From a virus, in IMG/VR virus record IMGVR_UViG_3300044988_000542, positions 1-26,073 of that record: DNA of 26,073 nt; one strand, 5' to 3'. A model generated the notes under the pieces. That model had not been told where the DNA came from. It ran no database searches and saw nothing but the letters and a program-made list of their open reading frames with translations. Position numbers and translations under genes: made by a program. Shown in pieces: positions 5,289 through 14,255 of this stretch (its first letter is position 1; each line of letters starts with the position of its first letter).

Positions 5289-5501
5289 TCAGACCATCGC
5301 CTCGTCGGCGTGCCTGACTTGGCCAGCCGGCAGCGGGAACAGGTCAGGCCGCTGCAGGCGCATCAGTGCGGGGATGCCGCGCACTCGCCAGTTGCTGACC
5401 CGCTGCACCCCGCCGGGGTACAGCCCGAGCCTCCGGGCCACGCTCGTGGGCCCGCCAAGCCTGTCGATCAGCTCTCGATCGTGGTCGATGTCCTTTCGCA
5501 T
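5289..5501 (-). CDS. Cro-like / carph-isopro-type HTH regulator, 70 aa
   Basis: Residues 10-45 form a short helix-turn-helix: LIDRLGGPTSVARRLGL, then VSNWRVRGIP. The LGG-x-x-x-VAR and W-R-x-RGIP pattern is typical of small phage Cro-family regulators. It is divergent from the repressor gene across the operator, as a Cro would be. Two in-frame ATGs exist, at 5510 and 5501. The one at 5510 lies inside the -10 box of the only good promoter, so a transcript would probably start beyond it. The ATG at 5501 is preferred and would be at or very near the 5' end of the mRNA. Confidence 0.8.
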   Translation of the reverse strand: MRKDIDHDRELIDRLGGPTSVARRLGLYPGGVQRVSNWRVRGIPALMRLQRPDLFPLPAGQVRHADEAMV

Positions 5502-5508
5502 GGCCCGC

Positions 5509-5538
5509 ATTCCACACCATGTGGAGTGCTCTTGTCAA
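5509..5538 (-). promoter_or_regulatory. leftward early promoter (PL-like)
   Basis: Read on the minus strand, a perfect -35 TTGACA (5538-5533) is followed after 18 bases by TGGAAT (5514-5509, four of six matches to TATAAT). It points into the Cro-like gene and the leftward replication operon. The operator palindrome lies over the spacer and -10 box. Confidence 0.75.
5511..5525. promoter_or_regulatory. operator O1, TCCAC-N5-GTGGA palindrome
   Basis: TCCACACCATGTGGA is a perfect dyad: TCCAC, five bases, GTGGA. It covers the -10 region of the leftward promoter, so a bound repressor would block polymerase. The same half-sites recur at 6417-6431 in the same place relative to a second promoter. Which regulator binds it is not known from sequence. 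Confidence 0.7.
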
Positions 5539-5585
5539 CTGGGCGTGTAACACGGGGAGCGTCTGACGGGGCACAGTGCTCCGGT

Positions 5586-6062
5586 ATGAGCGCTGACACG
5601 ATCGTCGAGGGGTCATTTGGCCGGCTGATGCAGGCCGCCTCCACGCGCGGCGTGGACATGCAGGCACAGCTCGCGCGCAAGCTGAACGAGCGCGACCAAG
5701 TCGTCGGCAACTGGAAGGTCCGCGGTGTCAGCCGCGACGGTGCCCTGGCAGCCCAGCGCGTGCTGGGGATCAGCGCCGTCTGGGTGCTGTACACCGAAGG
5801 CCCGCAGTTCGTATCGACGCCCGCGCCCGCGTTGCTGCCAGCTGCTCCGGTCGCTCGATCGTCAAAGCCCGCTGAGAGCTACGCGCCGGAGTTGGGTGAC
5901 GTGCTCGAGCACTTGGCGCAGCATCTGCGCGATGCCAAGCCGGACACGCGCTACAGCGCGGCACCGCTGCTGGCCAGGCTGGCCGAGAACCCGGCCGATG
6001 CACCGCGCGTCATCCGGGCGCTCGAAGCACTGATGCGGCACTACGCCGTCGAGGCCGCCTAG
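5586..6062 (+). CDS. CI-like repressor (XRE-type HTH), 158 aa
   Basis: The gene is divergent from the Cro-like gene across the operator and encodes the likely lysogeny repressor. Residues 8-60 look like an XRE-type HTH (FGRLMQAASTRGVDMQAQLA, then VVGNWKVRGVSRDGALAAQR, then GISAVWVLYTEG). The C-terminal 70 residues are helical (LGDVLEHLAQHLRD, VIRALEALMRHYAV), and I see none of the Ser/Lys catalytic or Ala-Gly cleavage features of a LexA/S24 peptidase. The ATG at 5586 is the only sensible start; its ribosome site is weak, and the upstream promoter is also poor (TGTAAC at 5546-5551), as is common for a repressor maintenance promoter. Its TAG stop shares bases with the opposing gene's stop. Confidence 0.75.
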   Translation: MSADTIVEGSFGRLMQAASTRGVDMQAQLARKLNERDQVVGNWKVRGVSRDGALAAQRVLGISAVWVLYTEGPQFVSTPAPALLPAAPVARSSKPAESYAPELGDVLEHLAQHLRDAKPDTRYSAAPLLARLAENPADAPRVIRALEALMRHYAVEAA

Positions 6063-8434: not shown

Positions 8435-8966
8435 GCGCTGCCGCCGCCGGGTGGTGTCGCCGATGCCGGCCTGGCTGCGGCCGAAACTGGACCGCGACCA
8501 GCTGCTCGACCTTGGCTTGGTGCACAGCCTGAACCTGGACGACATGGCCGCCGGCCGGGCCACGGTCGAAACGATGTGGCAGATGGCCGGCGGGGTGCTG
8601 ACCTGGGCTCGCGTGGCCGAGGTCATCGACATGCACCGCGCCGAGATGGCTAGGCAGGTGCAGACCATGCAGGCGGTGATCGACCGCTACCGGCGCACGC
8701 GGCGGGTCGGCTTCAGCGGCCTCGAGTACCAGGCGGCAAAGGAAGGCGTGGTCGTCATGGACGAGCTGGCCGCCCGCGTGGACCGCGCGACGGCCATGGC
8801 CGCGGCGGACTGGTCCGAGGCGTGCATCAACGACCTGATGGCCCGGGCTGCCGGCCACTGGCCGTTCCCCGATGCCGGCCAGACAAATGCGGCGCCGCCG
8901 CCGTGGAGCGGCACCCAGGCGCCGGCCGACGCCGACATCGCACACGCGGAGGACGCGAGATGGTGA
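8427..8966 (+). CDS. conserved phage hypothetical protein, 179 aa, GTG start
   Basis: The start is the GTG at 8427, eight bases inside the kinase gene, with a strong GGAGG seven bases upstream. The product begins with a basic segment (VRKRCRRRVVSPMP), then a helical core (LLDLGLVHSLNLDDMAAG, MWQMAGGVLTWARVAEVIDM, then a long Met/Arg helix) and a Pro/Ala-rich acidic tail. I recall proteins of this pattern from other Burkholderiales prophages, without a known function. The basic N-terminus and helical core would suit nucleic-acid binding. No catalytic motif is visible. Confidence 0.7.
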   Translation: MRKRCRRRVVSPMPAWLRPKLDRDQLLDLGLVHSLNLDDMAAGRATVETMWQMAGGVLTWARVAEVIDMHRAEMARQVQTMQAVIDRYRRTRRVGFSGLEYQAAKEGVVVMDELAARVDRATAMAAADWSEACINDLMARAAGHWPFPDAGQTNAAPPPWSGTQAPADADIAHAEDARW

Positions 8967-9226
8967 CGCGACTGATCGAGGCGTGGCTGCGCCACGTGGC
9001 CAACGTGCTGCGCGGTGCGCCGCCGCCGCGGCCGACTCTGGACGACGACCGGGCGATGCTCGAGAGCTTCGACGGCCTCGACACTGTGTACCTGTCGCTG
9101 GACGAGCGCGCCGCGCTGGATCGGCTGGTGGCCGCCGGCCAGGCCAGGCGCGAGAGGGCGCTGGCCTTCGGCACGAGCGTGTTTCACCGCTTCCACCTGC
9201 TGCCGCCGGCCGGGGGTGACCGGTGA
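8960..9226 (+). CDS. hypothetical protein, 88 aa
   Basis: The ATG at 8960 lies inside the end of the previous gene, and its stop overlaps the next GTG (GTGA). The product starts with an amphipathic helix (TRLIEAWLRHVANVLRG), then a Pro-rich turn and an acidic helical part (DDDRAMLESFDGLDTVYLSL). No family is recognised. The start of the helix could associate with membranes but is too short and charged for a real membrane span. Confidence 0.6.
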   Translation: MVTRLIEAWLRHVANVLRGAPPPRPTLDDDRAMLESFDGLDTVYLSLDERAALDRLVAAGQARRERALAFGTSVFHRFHLLPPAGGDR

Positions 9227-9915
9227 TTGCCACCGCCGCCCTGGCCGCCAGCGTCGCGGCCTGCTCCTGGGACCGACCCGGCGCCAACCCGTTCACCGGC
9301 GACGTCGTTGCGGCCGTCGACCGCTACCAGGACATTCCGGCGGCAGCGCGCCAGGCCCTCAAGGCCCGCATGGCCGCGCGCCGGTACGACGAGATCGCCA
9401 CGATCACGCGCGACGAGATCCGCGGCGCGCACCGCTACGAGGGCCTGCGCGACATGCACTTCGGCAGCGGGACGGTCTGCCGCACCGTCACCCGCGATCG
9501 GTGGGCGTCCGGCGCGGTCGAGCGCGGCCTCGTCTACTGCGAGCAGGCTCACTGCCTGATCGTGCCGACCGTGTGCCGCAACGTCAGCCGCGTGACGCGC
9601 GTGCCGCCGGCGCCGCCGCTGCCGCCCCCTCCACCCGACGACCCGCTGCGCGGCGCGCTGCAGGTGCCCGGTGGATCGGGCGGCATGAGCTGGGCGCAGC
9701 GCCTGGACGACGCCGGCGGCCAGCTGGTCGAAGAGCCGCGCCGTCGCGCACTGGATGACCCAGGCGCGTCGGCCTGGCCGACGCCGACGGACATGCCGAC
9801 CGTCGCCGCGCTGCCGACCGTCGTGGAGCCCGTGCCGGAGCCTGGCACCTGGGCGCTGATGTTGGCCGGCCTGGCCGGCGTGTGGGCGATCGCCAGAAGG
9901 AAGAGGTCACGATGA
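9223..9915 (+). CDS. MHFG-type PEP-CTERM protein, 230 aa
   Basis: The C-terminus is a textbook PEP-CTERM sorting signal: VPEPGTWALML, a hydrophobic span to about residue 223, then the basic ARRKRSR. Host exosortases recognise this signal and pass the protein to the envelope or surface. The body has the DMHFGSGTVC motif (residues 78-87) and four Cys in two pairs, then a conserved-looking VPTVCRNVSRV stretch and a Pro-rich linker (PPAPPLPPPPPDDP). I recall this as the MHFG family of PEP-CTERM proteins. The N-terminus is a short hydrophobic stretch ending in a lipobox-like VAAC, but without basic residues. The start is the GTG at 9223 (GTGA overlap). It sits inside the phage rightward operon, not beside it. 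Confidence 0.85.
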   Translation: MIATAALAASVAACSWDRPGANPFTGDVVAAVDRYQDIPAAARQALKARMAARRYDEIATITRDEIRGAHRYEGLRDMHFGSGTVCRTVTRDRWASGAVERGLVYCEQAHCLIVPTVCRNVSRVTRVPPAPPLPPPPPDDPLRGALQVPGGSGGMSWAQRLDDAGGQLVEEPRRRALDDPGASAWPTPTDMPTVAALPTVVEPVPEPGTWALMLAGLAGVWAIARRKRSR

Positions 9916-10163
9916 GACAAACACAGTGGGCGCCCACGGCGCCAGACGCGCGCTGGGTGCCGACCGTGCTGATGGTCGAAGAGCACGCTGACCTGTCCTG
10001 GCAGCAGATCCGCCGCCAGCAGCGCGACAGCGGCCCGCGTCGCATCCAGACGCGCAGGGCCGTCGGCATCGACGCCGGCGCGGCGCTGATGGCGCTGCTG
10101 AGCTTCGTGGCCGGGGGGCTGGTGACGCTGGTGACGCTCGCGGCGCGGGGGGTCTGGCTGTGA
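9912..10163 (+). CDS. small membrane protein downstream of the PEP-CTERM gene, 83 aa
   Basis: The ATG at 9912 overlaps the PEP-CTERM stop (ATGA) and has GAGG at a good distance. The N-terminal half is soluble (QWAPTAPDARWVPTVLMVEE). The C-terminal third is one membrane span (GAALMALLSFVAGGLVTLVT, residues about 57-76) and the last residues are short. Tight coupling to the PEP-CTERM gene hints at a shared role at the envelope, but nothing in the sequence proves it. No family is recognised. Confidence 0.65.
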   Translation: MRQTQWAPTAPDARWVPTVLMVEEHADLSWQQIRRQQRDSGPRRIQTRRAVGIDAGAALMALLSFVAGGLVTLVTLAARGVWL

Positions 10164-10837
10164 CGAAGAGCCGCAACAAGAACCGGCCACGCTGGACGCC
10201 CGATGCCGCGGCAGTCCAGCTGCTGCGGCGGGAGTTCCCGACGACGAAGACGGCCGAGCTGGCACAACGCCTGAACGTGCACTATCACCAGGTGGCGAAG
10301 GCCGCCGCGCGGCTCGGGCTGCGCAAAGACGAAGCCTGGCTGAACGGCCCGGATGGCGGGCGCACGGACGGCCGGCGAGGCCTGGGAACCAGGTTTCAGC
10401 CCGGGCAGCGCTCGTGGAGCACGGGCCTCAAGCTGGGCAGCGACTGGGGCAAGGCCTCGCAGTTCAAGCCCGGCCAGCGGCCGGTCAACTGGGTGCCCAT
10501 CGGCACCCTGCGCGTGGCGAGCACCCAGTACCTACAGGTCAAGCTGCACGACACCGGGTATCCGCCGCGTGACTGGGTCATGTATCACCGGCATGTGTGG
10601 GAGCAGGCGCACGGCCCGGTGCCGGCCGGGCACCTGGTGGTCTTTCGTGACGGGCGGCGGCGCCATGACCCGGCGCAGATCACGCTGGACGTGCTCGAGT
10701 GCATCACGCGGCAGGAGAGCATGCGCCGCAACAGCATGCACGCCTTCGGCCCGGAGGTGGCCGGCCTGATCCAACTGCGCGGCGTGCTCAGCCGCGCCAT
10801 CAACCGACGCGCCAAGGCGCAGGAGACGACGGAATGA
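10160..10837 (+). CDS. HNH endonuclease with N-terminal HTH, 225 aa
   Basis: Residues 12-55 resemble a small HTH (TKTAELAQRLNVHYHQVAKA). A linker with two similar basic motifs follows (RFQPGQRSW and QFKPGQRPV). Residues 138-195 form an HNH_3-type nuclease core: WVMYHRHVWEQAHGPVPAGH with His143, a VVFRDGRRRHD strand-turn, ITLDVLECITRQ, and the family's closing MRRNS. These enzymes cut or nick DNA and are often free-standing homing or packaging nucleases in phages. The expected Asn in the LDxLExIT strand region is Val. The GTG at 10160 overlaps the previous stop (GTGA). Confidence 0.85.
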   Translation: MTKSRNKNRPRWTPDAAAVQLLRREFPTTKTAELAQRLNVHYHQVAKAAARLGLRKDEAWLNGPDGGRTDGRRGLGTRFQPGQRSWSTGLKLGSDWGKASQFKPGQRPVNWVPIGTLRVASTQYLQVKLHDTGYPPRDWVMYHRHVWEQAHGPVPAGHLVVFRDGRRRHDPAQITLDVLECITRQESMRRNSMHAFGPEVAGLIQLRGVLSRAINRRAKAQETTE

Positions 10838-11414: not shown

Positions 11415-11741
11415 ATGCTGACCCCCGAGCACCTTGCCGCCGCCCTGTCGATCTCGGTCCGCCAGGTCTCGAGGCTGCGCGCCGCGGGCCTGCCGGCGGT
11501 GCCTGTCGGGGCCCGGTCGGTCAGGTACGATCTGCAGTCCTGCATCCGGTGGTTGCAGGACAACCCCGAGGCCTTATGCCCTACCGGCTCGACTCGCGCG
11601 GCCGCTACGACGTCAGTGTCTGCGTCCGCGGCACGCGCCTACACCGACGCCTGCCGGCGGGTAGCTCTGCGCGTGATGCCAAGCTCGTCGAGTCCGAGCT
11701 GCGCATCGCCGCCGAGCGAGACGCCGGCCGGCGCCAGGTAG
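11415..11741 (+). CDS. excisionase/AlpA-like HTH protein, up to 108 aa
   Basis: Residues 1-50 form a MerR/AlpA-type winged HTH as in many phage excisionases: MLTPEHLAAALSISVRQVSR, then VPVGARSVRYDLQ. It lies directly upstream of the integrase, the usual place for Xis. The frame stays open for 166 bases inside the integrase gene, but that part (Ser/Ala/Pro-rich) carries no visible structure, and the conserved domain ends near the integrase start. Lambda xis and int overlap similarly, though less. The functional C-terminus is uncertain. Confidence 0.7.
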   Translation: MLTPEHLAAALSISVRQVSRLRAAGLPAVPVGARSVRYDLQSCIRWLQDNPEALCPTGSTRAAATTSVSASAARAYTDACRRVALRVMPSSSSPSCASPPSETPAGAR

Positions 11742-12577
11742 TCATCCCTGGCGACCCGGCCCTGACGGCCGTGATGGCCGGCTACGTGGCCGCGGCGAAG
11801 CACCTGCGAAGCCCGGACACGGCCATCCACCACGCCCAGCGCATCGGCCGCTGGGTGGAGCAGTACCGGGCTAGCCAGGCGCGCCAGTGCGCTGCGCACA
11901 TCGTGACCGACATGCGCGGCCACTATGCGGACGCGACGATCAACCGCAGCTTGGGCACGCTGAAGCGTGCGCTGCGCATGGCCTGGGAGCGCGGCGAGAC
12001 CTCGCAGGACTGGTCCGCCCAGGTGCGCCGCCTGGCCGAGCACAATGCCCGCGACGTCTACCTGACGGTCGACGAGGTGGGCGCGATTGCCGCGCAGGCC
12101 AGCGAGTCGGTGCGGGCCTGTGTCTGGATCGCGCTGCTGACCGGCTGCCGCCGCGGCGAGATCCTGGCGCTGCGCGCCGAGGATATCCAGGGCGACACGC
12201 TGCTGGTGCGGGCGGGCAACACGAAGACGCTGCGCACGCGGACGGTGCCGATCATCGCGGCCCTGCGGCCGTGGCTGGCCTACGTGCCGGTGCAGCTGAA
12301 CGCGGAGGGGCTGAAGTCTGGATTCCGCCGCGCGCGCGAGGCGGCCGGGCGGGCGGACGTGCACTTTCACGATCTGCGGCACAGCTGCGCCACCATCCTG
12401 CTGTCCCTGGGCACGCCGCTTGACGTCGTGCGCGACGTGCTGGGGCACACGACGATCCGCACCACCGAGCGCTACGCTCACGCTCTGGTGCACCGGCAGC
12501 GGGCTGCGCTCGAGGGTCTGGGTGCGCTGGCGGATTTGCACCAGGCGTCTGCACCAGCTTCGGACCGAGCGGCCTGA
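11576..12577 (+). CDS. int: tyrosine-recombinase integrase, 333 aa
   Basis: The ATG at 11576 is chosen over an earlier one at 11549 because MPYRLDSRGR is the usual beginning of the arm-binding domain and GAGG lies just upstream. Residues about 60-155 are a SAM-like core-binding domain. The catalytic domain follows with all six expected residues: Arg192 (TGCRRGE), Lys217 (NTKTLR), His265 and Arg268 (HDLRHS), His291 (LGHTTIRT) and Tyr300 (ERYAH). It inserts phage DNA at the tRNA-derived core that begins 26 bases after the stop. The frame is complete and probably active. The gene is expressed in the rightward unit after the excisionase-like gene. Confidence 0.93.
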   Translation: MPYRLDSRGRYDVSVCVRGTRLHRRLPAGSSARDAKLVESELRIAAERDAGRRQVVIPGDPALTAVMAGYVAAAKHLRSPDTAIHHAQRIGRWVEQYRASQARQCAAHIVTDMRGHYADATINRSLGTLKRALRMAWERGETSQDWSAQVRRLAEHNARDVYLTVDEVGAIAAQASESVRACVWIALLTGCRRGEILALRAEDIQGDTLLVRAGNTKTLRTRTVPIIAALRPWLAYVPVQLNAEGLKSGFRRAREAAGRADVHFHDLRHSCATILLSLGTPLDVVRDVLGHTTIRTTERYAHALVHRQRAALEGLGALADLHQASAPASDRAA

Positions 12578-12742
12578 GTCGCCGCTAAGTGCTTGATTTT
12601 GTTGGTGGGTGGTACAGGGATCGAACCTGTGGCCCCTGCCGTGTGAAGGCGACTGGCCGCTCCTGTCACCTACGGAGAGGCCCGCGAAAACAGGCACTTT
12701 CGTGCGTCGGCGGCCTACCGTTTACACCAGAACGTACACCAG
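12485..12742. repeat. T[G/A]CACCAG repeats flanking the att core; candidate integrase arm sites
   Basis: The octamer TGCACCAG or TACACCAG occurs at 12537-12544, 12550-12557, 12723-12730 and 12735-12742, with a complementary copy (CTGGTGCA) at 12485-12492. Copies come in pairs 12-13 bases apart on each side of the core. This mirrors the P and P' arms to which lambda-type integrases bind with their N-terminal domain. On the left side the copies lie inside the end of the integrase gene. The remainder of the 12651-12814 gap holds no gene that I can support. Confidence 0.5.
12603..12650 (-). other. attachment core: 3' part of tRNA-Val(CAC)
   Basis: Read on the minus strand, this is the 3' end of a tRNA: anticodon loop TTCACAC (anticodon CAC), 3' anticodon stem GGCAG, variable loop, T-arm ACAGG-TTCGATC-CCTGT, acceptor strand ACCACCC, discriminator A and CCA. 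The 5' half is missing; no GGGTGGT acceptor partner or D-arm lies upstream. The stem partner of GGCAG should read CTGCC but the sequence reads TCGCC, so tRNA identity ends near 12650, which I take as the core boundary. Such 3' pieces restore the target tRNA after phage integration. Confidence 0.8.
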
Positions 12743-12814: not shown

Positions 12815-13354
12815 TCACTTCAGCGCGTCGACTGCGGCCTGGTAGGCGCGCTCGCAGGCGAGGCCGGCAGCTCGGGCTCGGTCAGCATGTTCTGCCAGCG
12901 CTCCCGCTGCAGCGTCAGACTCCGCGAGCACGCGCAGGAGCCGGTCGGCGTCGTGCATGCTGCCGGGCACGCCGGCTGGCGCGCCTCGCCCGGGAGCGGC
13001 ACCAGGCGGGGGTGAGCAACGGCGGGCGGCGTAGCGGGCGGCTGCGTCGCGCAGGCTGTCAGCAGCGACGACAGCAGCAGCAGCATCGGCGCGCAGCGCC
13101 TCGACGGTTTCGCGGGCTTCACGGGCGATGGCCTCCGTCTTGTCGATGATGTCGTGCTCCCGAGCCCGGGCGGCCTCGACGGCCTGGCGGGCGGCGGTCT
13201 GGGCCTGGGCGAGCTGCTCGGCCTGCTCGGCGCGGATCCTCGCGATCTGGCCGGTGGCGATGTGCCCGCGGGCGAGCCAGCCGGCGGCGACAAGGCTGCC
13301 GCCGATGACGACGGCGGCGATCAGGCGCGGGGATATGGCGGCCAGCGGGATCAC
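12815..13354 (-). CDS. inner-membrane spanin Rz, 179 aa
   Basis: The start is a GTG at 13354 overlapping the endolysin stop (GTGA). Residues 9-29 are an N-terminal membrane anchor (LIAAVVIGGSLVAAGWLA). Residues 35-105 are a coiled-coil stretch rich in Ala, Glu and Arg, as expected of the periplasmic part of an i-spanin. The C-terminal part (LRVLAESDAAAGALAEHADR) resembles the DUF2514-type Rz family. Together with the nested outer-membrane partner it fuses inner and outer membranes in the last lysis step. The upstream long open frame is a shadow. Confidence 0.8.
   Translation of the reverse strand: MIPLAAISPRLIAAVVIGGSLVAAGWLARGHIATGQIARIRAEQAEQLAQAQTAARQAVEAARAREHDIIDKTEAIAREARETVEALRADAAAAVVAADSLRDAAARYAARRCSPPPGAAPGRGAPAGVPGSMHDADRLLRVLAESDAAAGALAEHADRARAAGLACERAYQAAVDALK
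12820..13122 (-). CDS. outer-membrane spanin lipoprotein Rz1, nested in Rz, 100 aa
   Basis: This gene lies entirely inside Rz in another frame, as in lambda. A lipobox LTAC follows a Leu-rich signal (MLLLLSSLLTAC), then a Pro-rich mature part (ATQPPATPPAVAHPRLVPLP). An ATG at 13086 would give no basic residues before the hydrophobic core. A GTG at 13122 gives VKPAKPSRRCAP in front of it, and has GGAGG nine bases upstream, so the GTG is preferred. The lipid-modified Cys would be residue 24. The end segment LQRERWQNMLTEPELP is typical of this group as I recall it. Confidence 0.8.
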   Translation of the reverse strand: MKPAKPSRRCAPMLLLLSSLLTACATQPPATPPAVAHPRLVPLPGEARQPACPAACTTPTGSCACSRSLTLQRERWQNMLTEPELPASPASAPTRPQSTR

Positions 13355-14031
13355 TTGCGGCCCGCCTGGTAGTCCTGCCAGCGGCGCCACAGCGCGTAGG
13401 CCGCGCCCGCGAGCACGACGGCCAGCAGCACCCAGCGCACCGGGTCGGCCGGCGGCGTGTCGGCGGCCTGCTGCACGGCCGCGCGGGTCTCGGTGACGAT
13501 GCGCAGCACCTCGACGCCGCCCAGGCCGGCGGCGGCCACGGTGGCCGAGCCGGCGCCCACGGCGGTGCCGGTCTCGGTGAAGGCGCGCGCCGGGGCCTTG
13601 CCGGCCAGCCAGCGCGCGACATTGAAGCCGGGGCACGCCTTGGCCGCGTACTGGTTGTGGCCCGTGACCTTGGTGATGCCCGGGTGCTCGGCACGCAGCC
13701 TGTCGATGAGGGCCCGCAGGGCGGCGCCCTGCTCGGCCGTGTAGTGCTGCTCGAAGGCGTCGGTGGCCGCCGCGCCGTGGCCACCCAGCAGGCAGATGCC
13801 GATCGCGGTGGCGTTCGCCTTGGGCTCGAATGCGCCAGTGCGGTGCACGGGGCGGCCGGGGTAGACCTGGCCGTCCCTGTCGATCACGAAGTGGTAGCCG
13901 ATGTCCCGCCAGCCGTTGAGCTGCACATGCCAGCGGCGGATCTCGGCGACGCGCTCGACGCCGGTGCGCTCGGCCATCCACCCCGGGCGCGTGGCGGCGC
14001 AGTGAATGTTGATCTCGTCGATCGGCCTCAT
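13351..14031 (-). CDS. N-acetylmuramoyl-L-alanine amidase endolysin with C-terminal membrane segment, 226 aa
   Basis: The enzyme cuts the bond between muramic acid and the stem peptide of the cell wall. Zinc ligands of the Amidase_2/T7-lysozyme family are visible: His10 (INIHCAATRP), His125 (VTGHNQY) and Cys133 (KACPGFNVARW), with Tyr46 (IGYHFVIDRDG) and Lys131 as catalytic residues. The catalytic domain ends near residue 145. A linker rich in Ala, Gly and Thr follows, then a hydrophobic segment (WVLLAVVLAGAAYALW, 200-215) and a basic end. The ATG at 14031 overlaps the preceding stop (ATGA). A membrane-anchored tail is not the standard soluble or N-terminal SAR layout. Confidence 0.9.
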   Translation of the reverse strand: MRPIDEINIHCAATRPGWMAERTGVERVAEIRRWHVQLNGWRDIGYHFVIDRDGQVYPGRPVHRTGAFEPKANATAIGICLLGGHGAAATDAFEQHYTAEQGAALRALIDRLRAEHPGITKVTGHNQYAAKACPGFNVARWLAGKAPARAFTETGTAVGAGSATVAAAGLGGVEVLRIVTETRAAVQQAADTPPADPVRWVLLAVVLAGAAYALWRRWQDYQAGRK

Positions 14032-14255
14032 TCGGCAGCGGCCTGCTTCTGCTGCTGGGCGACCAGGCGGCCGAGGATGATGGCCACCCCCATCAGGCCC
14101 ATCAGCTTGGACTGATCGAGCCCGACGAGCGCCAGGATGGCGGCCTGCTGGTCGGCCGGGATTGAGGCCCAGACAACCAGGAGCGCGCTGATCTGGACGC
14201 TGAGCCACTTCCAGGCTTGGCGCCAGTCGCTGACGAGGATCTTGTCGAGGGTCAT
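14028..14255 (-). CDS. holin-like membrane protein, 75 aa
   Basis: The ATG at 14255 has AGGAGC upstream at a good distance. The N-terminal segment (MTLDKILVSDWRQAWKWLSV) is followed by a membrane span (ISALLVVWASIP), a short loop and a second hydrophobic stretch (KLMGLMGVAIILGRLV), ending in QQQKQAAAE. Size, two spans and position directly before the endolysin fit a small phage holin that lets the endolysin act. A neighbouring gene also encodes a membrane protein, so which is the holin and which the regulator is open. Confidence 0.65.
   Translation of the reverse strand: MTLDKILVSDWRQAWKWLSVQISALLVVWASIPADQQAAILALVGLDQSKLMGLMGVAIILGRLVAQQQKQAAAE

Follow-up and report, generated by a model that had tools for sequence, protein, structure and literature searches.

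A recurrent phage-borne lineage of MHFG family PEP-CTERM proteins

Why would a virus carry a gene whose product is addressed to a bacterial surface-sorting enzyme? PEP-CTERM proteins have been tied to exosortase and exopolysaccharide (PMC1569441, Haft et al. 2006). Exosortase sorting has so far been viewed as part of host matrix biology, and the functions of most of its cargo are poorly known. The question is raised by a gene at positions 9223 to 9915 of a linear IMG/VR virus contig of 26,073 bases (the window, i.e., the whole stretch of DNA analyzed). Its product has the PEP motif, membrane helix, and basic tail in common with proteins of the PEP-CTERM/exosortase (EpsH/XrtA) system (PMC1569441); here, however, the cargo gene is viral, and the sorting enzyme would be the host's. 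Phages are not mentioned in PMC1569441.

An MHFG Family Gene in a Temperate Siphophage

The integrase, tape measure, major tail protein, holin, amidase, and Rz genes mark the window as the genome of a temperate siphophage. PHROGs and Pfam searches retrieved a VapE/primase protein (primase/helicase), a deoxynucleotide monophosphate kinase (DNMP kinase), an HNH endonuclease, and a tyrosine integrase, and PHROGs further matched the Rz-like spanin (Rz, phrog_312), amidase, holin, tape measure protein, and major tail protein. The integrase, primase/helicase, tape measure, holin, and Rz matches bear out the claim of a preliminary description, made from the sequence alone, that the gene sits in a phage operon. 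It lies within a plus-strand run with the DNMP kinase gene on one side and the HNH and integrase genes on the other, while the lysis and tail genes occupy the minus strand. By strand and position it is therefore grouped with non-structural genes, apart from the lysis cassette.

The immediate neighbors are tightly spaced. An 88-aa gene without a family match (8960 to 9226, plus strand) ends in a GTGA overlap with the start of the gene at 9223 to 9226, and the stop codon (TGA, 9913 to 9915) overlaps the next ATG at 9912 (ATGA, 9912 to 9915), both as first described. That ATG opens a gene for a small single-span membrane protein (9912 to 10163, plus strand), followed in the same operon by the HNH endonuclease gene (10160 to 10837, plus strand; phrog_1891, E = 3e-40). 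The tyrosine integrase gene (11549 to 12577; PF00589, 84.7 bits; phrog_1) lies downstream on the same strand. A complete, separate lysis cassette (12815 to 14255, minus strand), delimited by PHROGs and the list of open reading frames (ORFs), comprises holin, amidase, and Rz with an embedded Rz1-like lipoprotein frame.

A helix-turn-helix (excisionase-like) frame at 11415 to 11741 overlaps the integrase start by about 190 bases in a different frame, and the helix-turn-helix sequence at the start of a gene on another viral contig (L133, 8640 to 9746) resembles it. Beside the integrase gene, positions ∼12610 to 12650 resemble the 3' half of a tRNA by eye and were considered as an attP; ARAGORN and Rfam retrieved nothing, and no near-identical copy was found in the 351 genomes scanned. 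For these reasons, no host was inferred from this segment. Relatives of the window primase occur in 12 of 401 sampled genomes, which does not name the host.

The ORF at 9223 to 9915 (plus strand) is complete and encodes 230 aa from a GTG codon. Because an in-frame TGA lies at 9217 to 9219, translation starts at this GTG or later, and a longer N-terminus is impossible. A profile search assigned the protein to NCBIfam NF038119 (PEP_CTERM_MHFG; E = 6e-72, 243.1 bits against a curated cutoff of 100 bits); the family name MHFG given in the preliminary description was thus correct. Pfam PF07589 (PEP-CTERM; 30.4 bits, cutoff of 20.7) and TIGR02595 (28.9 bits, cutoff of 16) also exceeded their cutoffs. 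The C-terminus reads VPEPGTWALMLAGLAGVWAIARRKRSR, so that the tripartite signal of PEP motif, membrane helix, and basic cluster is intact, as had been proposed. No PHROGs v4 family matched the protein (best E = 0.041, chance level).

Four parts can be distinguished. A short hydrophobic N-terminus (9223 to 9261) precedes a conserved five-cysteine MHFG domain (residues 14 to 127; 9262 to 9603), which holds the name-giving motif (M78-H79-F80-G81) and cysteines C14, C86, C106, C111, and C118, all kept in the phage rows and nearly all of the chromosomal rows of our alignments. A proline-rich, variable linker modeled by AlphaFold2 with low confidence follows (9604 to 9822) and includes an (I/V/L)PGG stretch present in 7 of 10 phage copies versus 11 of 56 chromosomal copies. 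The sorting signal (9823 to 9912) forms the C-terminus, with a predicted helix at residues 209 to 229.

Recurrence on Other Viruses

Scans of 2.9 million viral contigs retrieved the MHFG gene in 11 further records (L002, L003, L109 to L116, and L133), two of which (L111 and L113) encode an identical protein. Judged by PHROGs or gene content, the MHFG-bearing contigs represent at least eight distinct phage backbones. L002 and the window are syntenic; L133 shares the HNH-small gene-integrase end of the window and differs from it in replication genes. L003 carries a DNA polymerase A-like gene and tail genes unlike those of the window; L109 and L110 are 60-kb phages with a polymerase and primase of another kind. 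The remainder are marked by a YqaJ-type exonuclease and RecT-like protein (L111 and L113), endolysin and DNA-ejection or neck genes (L112 and L116), a DNA ligase and an adenylosuccinate-synthetase-like gene (L115), or a NinI-like phosphatase (L114). Apart from one truncated copy, all viral copies have retained the PEP-CTERM end, while the linker is hardly alignable among them. A tblastn search of 50,697 annotated phage records with the window, L112, L114, and L116 copies found no relative, nor was one of the window protein found in 72,556 plasmids.

In all readable phage layouts, the MHFG gene accompanies early or middle genes, never late ones: it lies opposite the late genes in the window, L003, L112, and L116; L109/L110, L111, and L133 have it on the same strand as genes for replication, recombination, or integration. 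The layouts of L114 and L115 are unreadable and have no bearing on timing. This arrangement bears on whether the protein might act on the particle, as a virion-associated or entry-related protein, rather than on the host-cell surface. Nothing specific favors such a role, the gene's non-structural company and its strand opposite the late genes speak against it, and an exosortase signal would have no evident use in a virion; we consider it highly improbable.

Several further genes on viral contigs deserve mention. Two genes after the MHFG gene, L133 encodes a lipoprotein with a glycine-zipper-like sequence (5449 to 5820), another possible envelope cargo. A gene on L115 (8914 to 9975) matches phrog_1211 (2-aminooxy adenylosuccinate synthetase), on account of which this phage may make a modified adenine for its DNA. 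Two contigs carry other PEP-CTERM proteins (VPEPGTWALMLAGFAMTGYALRRRR type; L006, 477 to 1076; L007, 2341 to 3003) directly before apparent P2/Mu-like tail and baseplate genes; exosortase cargo on phages thus goes beyond the MHFG family. Lastly, two viral contigs of 20 to 41 kb encode a PEP-CTERM protein of 168 aa with no relation to MHFG (L004, 7608 to 8114; L005, 3269 to 3775), together with YqaJ-like nuclease and methyltransferase-like genes.

The Chromosomal Family and Its Phage-Borne Sister Lineage

PEP-CTERM proteins had been described at the outset as normally chromosomal, and this holds for the MHFG family: of 401 genomes sampled within the family of Inhella proteolytica (Burkholderiales), 51 scored above the NF038119 cutoff, with the gene usually beside uvrA, and a sample of 299 genomes across the order gave no member outside Inhella itself. 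A search of phage and host sets, which the preliminary description had proposed, therefore shows a mainly chromosomal family that is also phage-borne (12 viral records). At most compared chromosomal loci, a convergent gene of ∼1,000 aa just downstream is uvrA by sequence, each copy having relatives in about 40 of 60 loci. An AKP-repeat (histone H1-like) gene generally lies upstream, in many cases with a response regulator in between. No prophage was found among the atypical chromosomal contexts examined. Some chromosomal frames (L071, 6047 to 8182; L072, 2083 to 4257) encode proteins of 711 to 724 aa that begin with an MHFG-like domain and end in apparent Ig-like repeats without a PEP-CTERM signal; long frames of this kind were also seen in further genomes of the Inhella proteolytica family.

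An exosortase match (TIGR02602) of any strength was obtained in 190 of the 401 genomes. Among the MHFG-positive genomes, 48 of 51 had such a match, and it was clear in 47, compared with roughly 120 of the 350 other genomes (odds ratio of 22.8, Fisher P = 6e-16, not corrected for shared ancestry). The preliminary description had called for a check that the hosts carry an exosortase; at the level of the family it is there, a result that does not extend to the window phage's own host.

While the chromosomal members share the five-cysteine domain, proline-rich linker, and PEP-CTERM end with the window protein, the window copy is phage-borne, lacks the uvrA neighborhood, and is one residue shorter before L-R-D-M-H-F-G. 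The one-residue deletion before the motif, with leucine replacing the usual isoleucine, is common to all phage copies and two chromosomal genes (L067, 7658 to 8569; L069, 2947 to 3954) with non-phage neighbors (dus-like and enoyl-CoA hydratase-like). A domain tree, built without three highly divergent chromosomal copies, separated the 11 distinct phage copies plus L067 and L069 from 51 chromosomal copies with branch support of 100/99. A phage-only group was not rejected (p-AU = 0.54; likelihood slightly above that of the free tree), and the inner forks are unsure because the domain is short. Thus, the chromosomal Burkholderiales MHFG gene has a phage-borne sister lineage that retains the domain and the PEP-CTERM end. 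The simplest reading of the tree would be a single capture, after which the gene spread from phage to phage. Since L067 and L069 lie amid ordinary bacterial genes, they could have moved back from a phage into a chromosome, or they could be an ancient sister on the chromosome, and the direction of gene travel is accordingly not fully settled.

Selection and Predicted Structure

Among the window, L002, and L003 copies, dN/dS was 0.12 to 0.21 in the domain, 0.42 to 0.79 in the linker, and 0.39 to 0.55 in the C-terminal signal; the cysteine domain is under purifying selection. The domain alone was modeled by AlphaFold2 (12 sequences) with a pLDDT of 91 and a pTM of 0.86, as two helices followed by six strands. 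Sequence comparison with solved structures found no relative of the window protein, Foldseek gave no match at E = 0.001 for the whole protein or the domain alone, and a VIA-align comparison of the domain model with solved structures reached a best Z of 2.3. Galectin rows in the structure search (TM of about 0.2) were not meaningful. A BFVD model, A0A1B0UZY4, matched the window model with E = 2.3e-3 and a probability of 0.97 at 18% identity and a TM of 0.23. The absence of a confident relative among solved structures would not by itself indicate a new fold.

These results bear on two rival explanations. In the first, the gene is a passive passenger, whether by chance capture of a host gene, host contamination of viral contigs, or misassembly, as might be supposed for a family that is mainly chromosomal. 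This is the least probable reading of all and is already contradicted by recurrence, lineage, and selection: the gene is found in 12 viral records on several unrelated backbones, with the chromosomal uvrA context in none of the 12, and its copies share a phage lineage and deletion and are under purifying selection. Misassembly of a chromosomal copy, which the preliminary description had named as a possible refutation, fails on the presence of the gene in 11 other viral contigs with different backbones and on the systematic difference between phage and chromosomal copies in the tree and the deletion.

In the second, the phage protein is a decoy that competes with the host MHFG protein or occupies the exosortase, leaving the processing of normal PEP-CTERM proteins deficient, with loss of matrix or receptors. 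The phage and host proteins do resemble each other (chromosomal copies are 47 to 57% identical to the window protein), and the sampled genomes of the family each encode many other PEP-CTERM proteins, as judged from the many C-terminal-only profile matches per genome. A conserved, folded domain under purifying selection would be needless for a pure exosortase decoy, however, and we regard this explanation as unlikely.

The N-Terminus and a Possible Lysis Function

The N-termini of the phage copies are shorter than those of chromosomal members and end at the cysteine. In the window, about 13 hydrophobic residues with no lysine or arginine among the first 13 (MIATAALAASVAA) run directly into Cys14 as a putative signal peptide, in contrast to MSLLATLALAASGATLPQ-C in typical chromosomal members. 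By eye, a lipobox-like sequence is apparent in some phage copies (VAAC in the window, L002, and L003), whereas the chromosomal hydrophobic stretch ends at TLPHC or TLPQC, which does not fit a lipobox. The L116 copy (1894 to 2550) begins MLDACSWD with no in-frame leader and differs in this from all other phage copies with a start present. The phage N-terminus may therefore act as an ordinary signal peptide, as a lipoprotein signal, or as a poorly functioning export signal; of these, the lipoprotein signal seems improbable.

A lipobox-like VAAC, a periplasmic proline-rich stretch, and a C-terminal membrane span would together give the topology of a u-spanin, and on sequence the window, L002, and L003 proteins fit. 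In the window, however, the gene lies outside the lysis cassette, which supplies Rz together with its embedded Rz1-like frame, and the protein would not be the only spanin. The chromosomal members moreover mostly adjoin uvrA, not phage genes, and lack the lipobox, and the window protein has no basic n-region. We thus consider a lysis function very unlikely.

A Candidate Partner Gene

The gene at 9912 to 10163 encodes a small protein with apparently one C-terminal span. Its homologues lie directly after the MHFG gene in L002 (57% identity) and one gene further in L003 (34%), with none of 1,000 shuffles reaching the alignment score. A viral scan with the three small proteins retrieved no contigs beyond the MHFG-bearing L002 and L003. 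It may be a partner gene of MHFG in the closest phages. Extension to further phages was weak: in comparisons of the window or L002 protein, 0 to 2 of 1,000 shuffles reached the score with L109 and 3 to 64 of 1,000 with L112, and the L003 protein matched those of L109 and L112 at chance level.

Proposed Role at the Infected-Cell Surface

We propose, with a probability of about 50%, that the MHFG protein is a phage-adapted exosortase cargo that is exported and exosortase-processed in infected or lysogenic cells and remodels their surface or matrix, most likely lowering the adsorption of competing phages. The gene would be transcribed with the early or middle genes, or from the prophage, and its product would be exported by Sec. 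After cleavage at the membrane by the host exosortase, which would recognize the PEP-CTERM end, the five-cysteine domain would reach the outer surface or the matrix, carried on a proline-rich stalk. At that site, the phage protein would replace or mix with the host's own MHFG protein and alter the envelope or exopolysaccharide layer. Adsorption of competing phages would most likely fall as a result, which would amount to superinfection exclusion or lysogenic conversion. We infer receptor masking or a matrix change as the effect of the phage protein, and the proposal of the preliminary description, blocked receptors or altered biofilm material in a lysogen, is plausible. The export step is weakened by the signal peptide of only ∼13 residues without a basic residue and by the missing in-frame leader in L116.

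Recurrence on at least eight viruses suggests repeated viral use of the host sorting system to alter the infected-cell surface. More tentatively, and at somewhat less than even odds, phages of exosortase-bearing Betaproteobacteria would share a mobile cargo lineage, sometimes with the small membrane protein, that remodels surface or matrix as a counter-phage device not described before.

Relation to Known Systems

Both the protein family and the sorting system were known before; the recurrent phage-borne lineage is undescribed in the literature searched. Among the papers listed there, the term MHFG was not found, and those consulted of the PEP-CTERM/exosortase papers mentioning phage describe nothing phage-borne beyond a passing report of TIGR03118 proteins with an exosortase-interaction C-terminus on hot-spring viral contigs, ascribed to horizontal transfer (PMC11003980). 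That case concerns a different family and setting, and the passage concerned analyzes neither function nor phage spread.

There is precedent for PEP-CTERM proteins of Betaproteobacteria acting in the extracellular matrix. Floc formation in Aquincola involves PepA, whose overexpression raises bound polysaccharide (PMC9850573). The window protein differs from such flocculation proteins of Aquincola and Zoogloea in its unrelated N-terminal part; floc_PepA matches only its C-terminal 26 residues (22 bits). Prophage-encoded receptor blocking is likewise a known strategy (PMC11436027), and the proposed role resembles that of superinfection-exclusion proteins such as HK97 gp15 and P22 SieA, phage-encoded envelope proteins that lower entry of other phages (PMC11436027, PMC10883804). 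The likeness to these proteins lies in the proposed role. Neither gp15 nor SieA is known to use exosortase sorting.

With no member in annotated phage collections or PHROGs, MHFG cargo may be a component of lysogenic conversion in environmental Betaproteobacteria that has so far escaped notice. Many different phages have kept it, so that the action of the domain must help a virus inside the cell, and nature has in effect run an experiment on its function. The phage lineage thus opens a direct route to the function of MHFG proteins and to the question of whether exosortase sorting affects phage competition in biofilm and activated-sludge bacteria.
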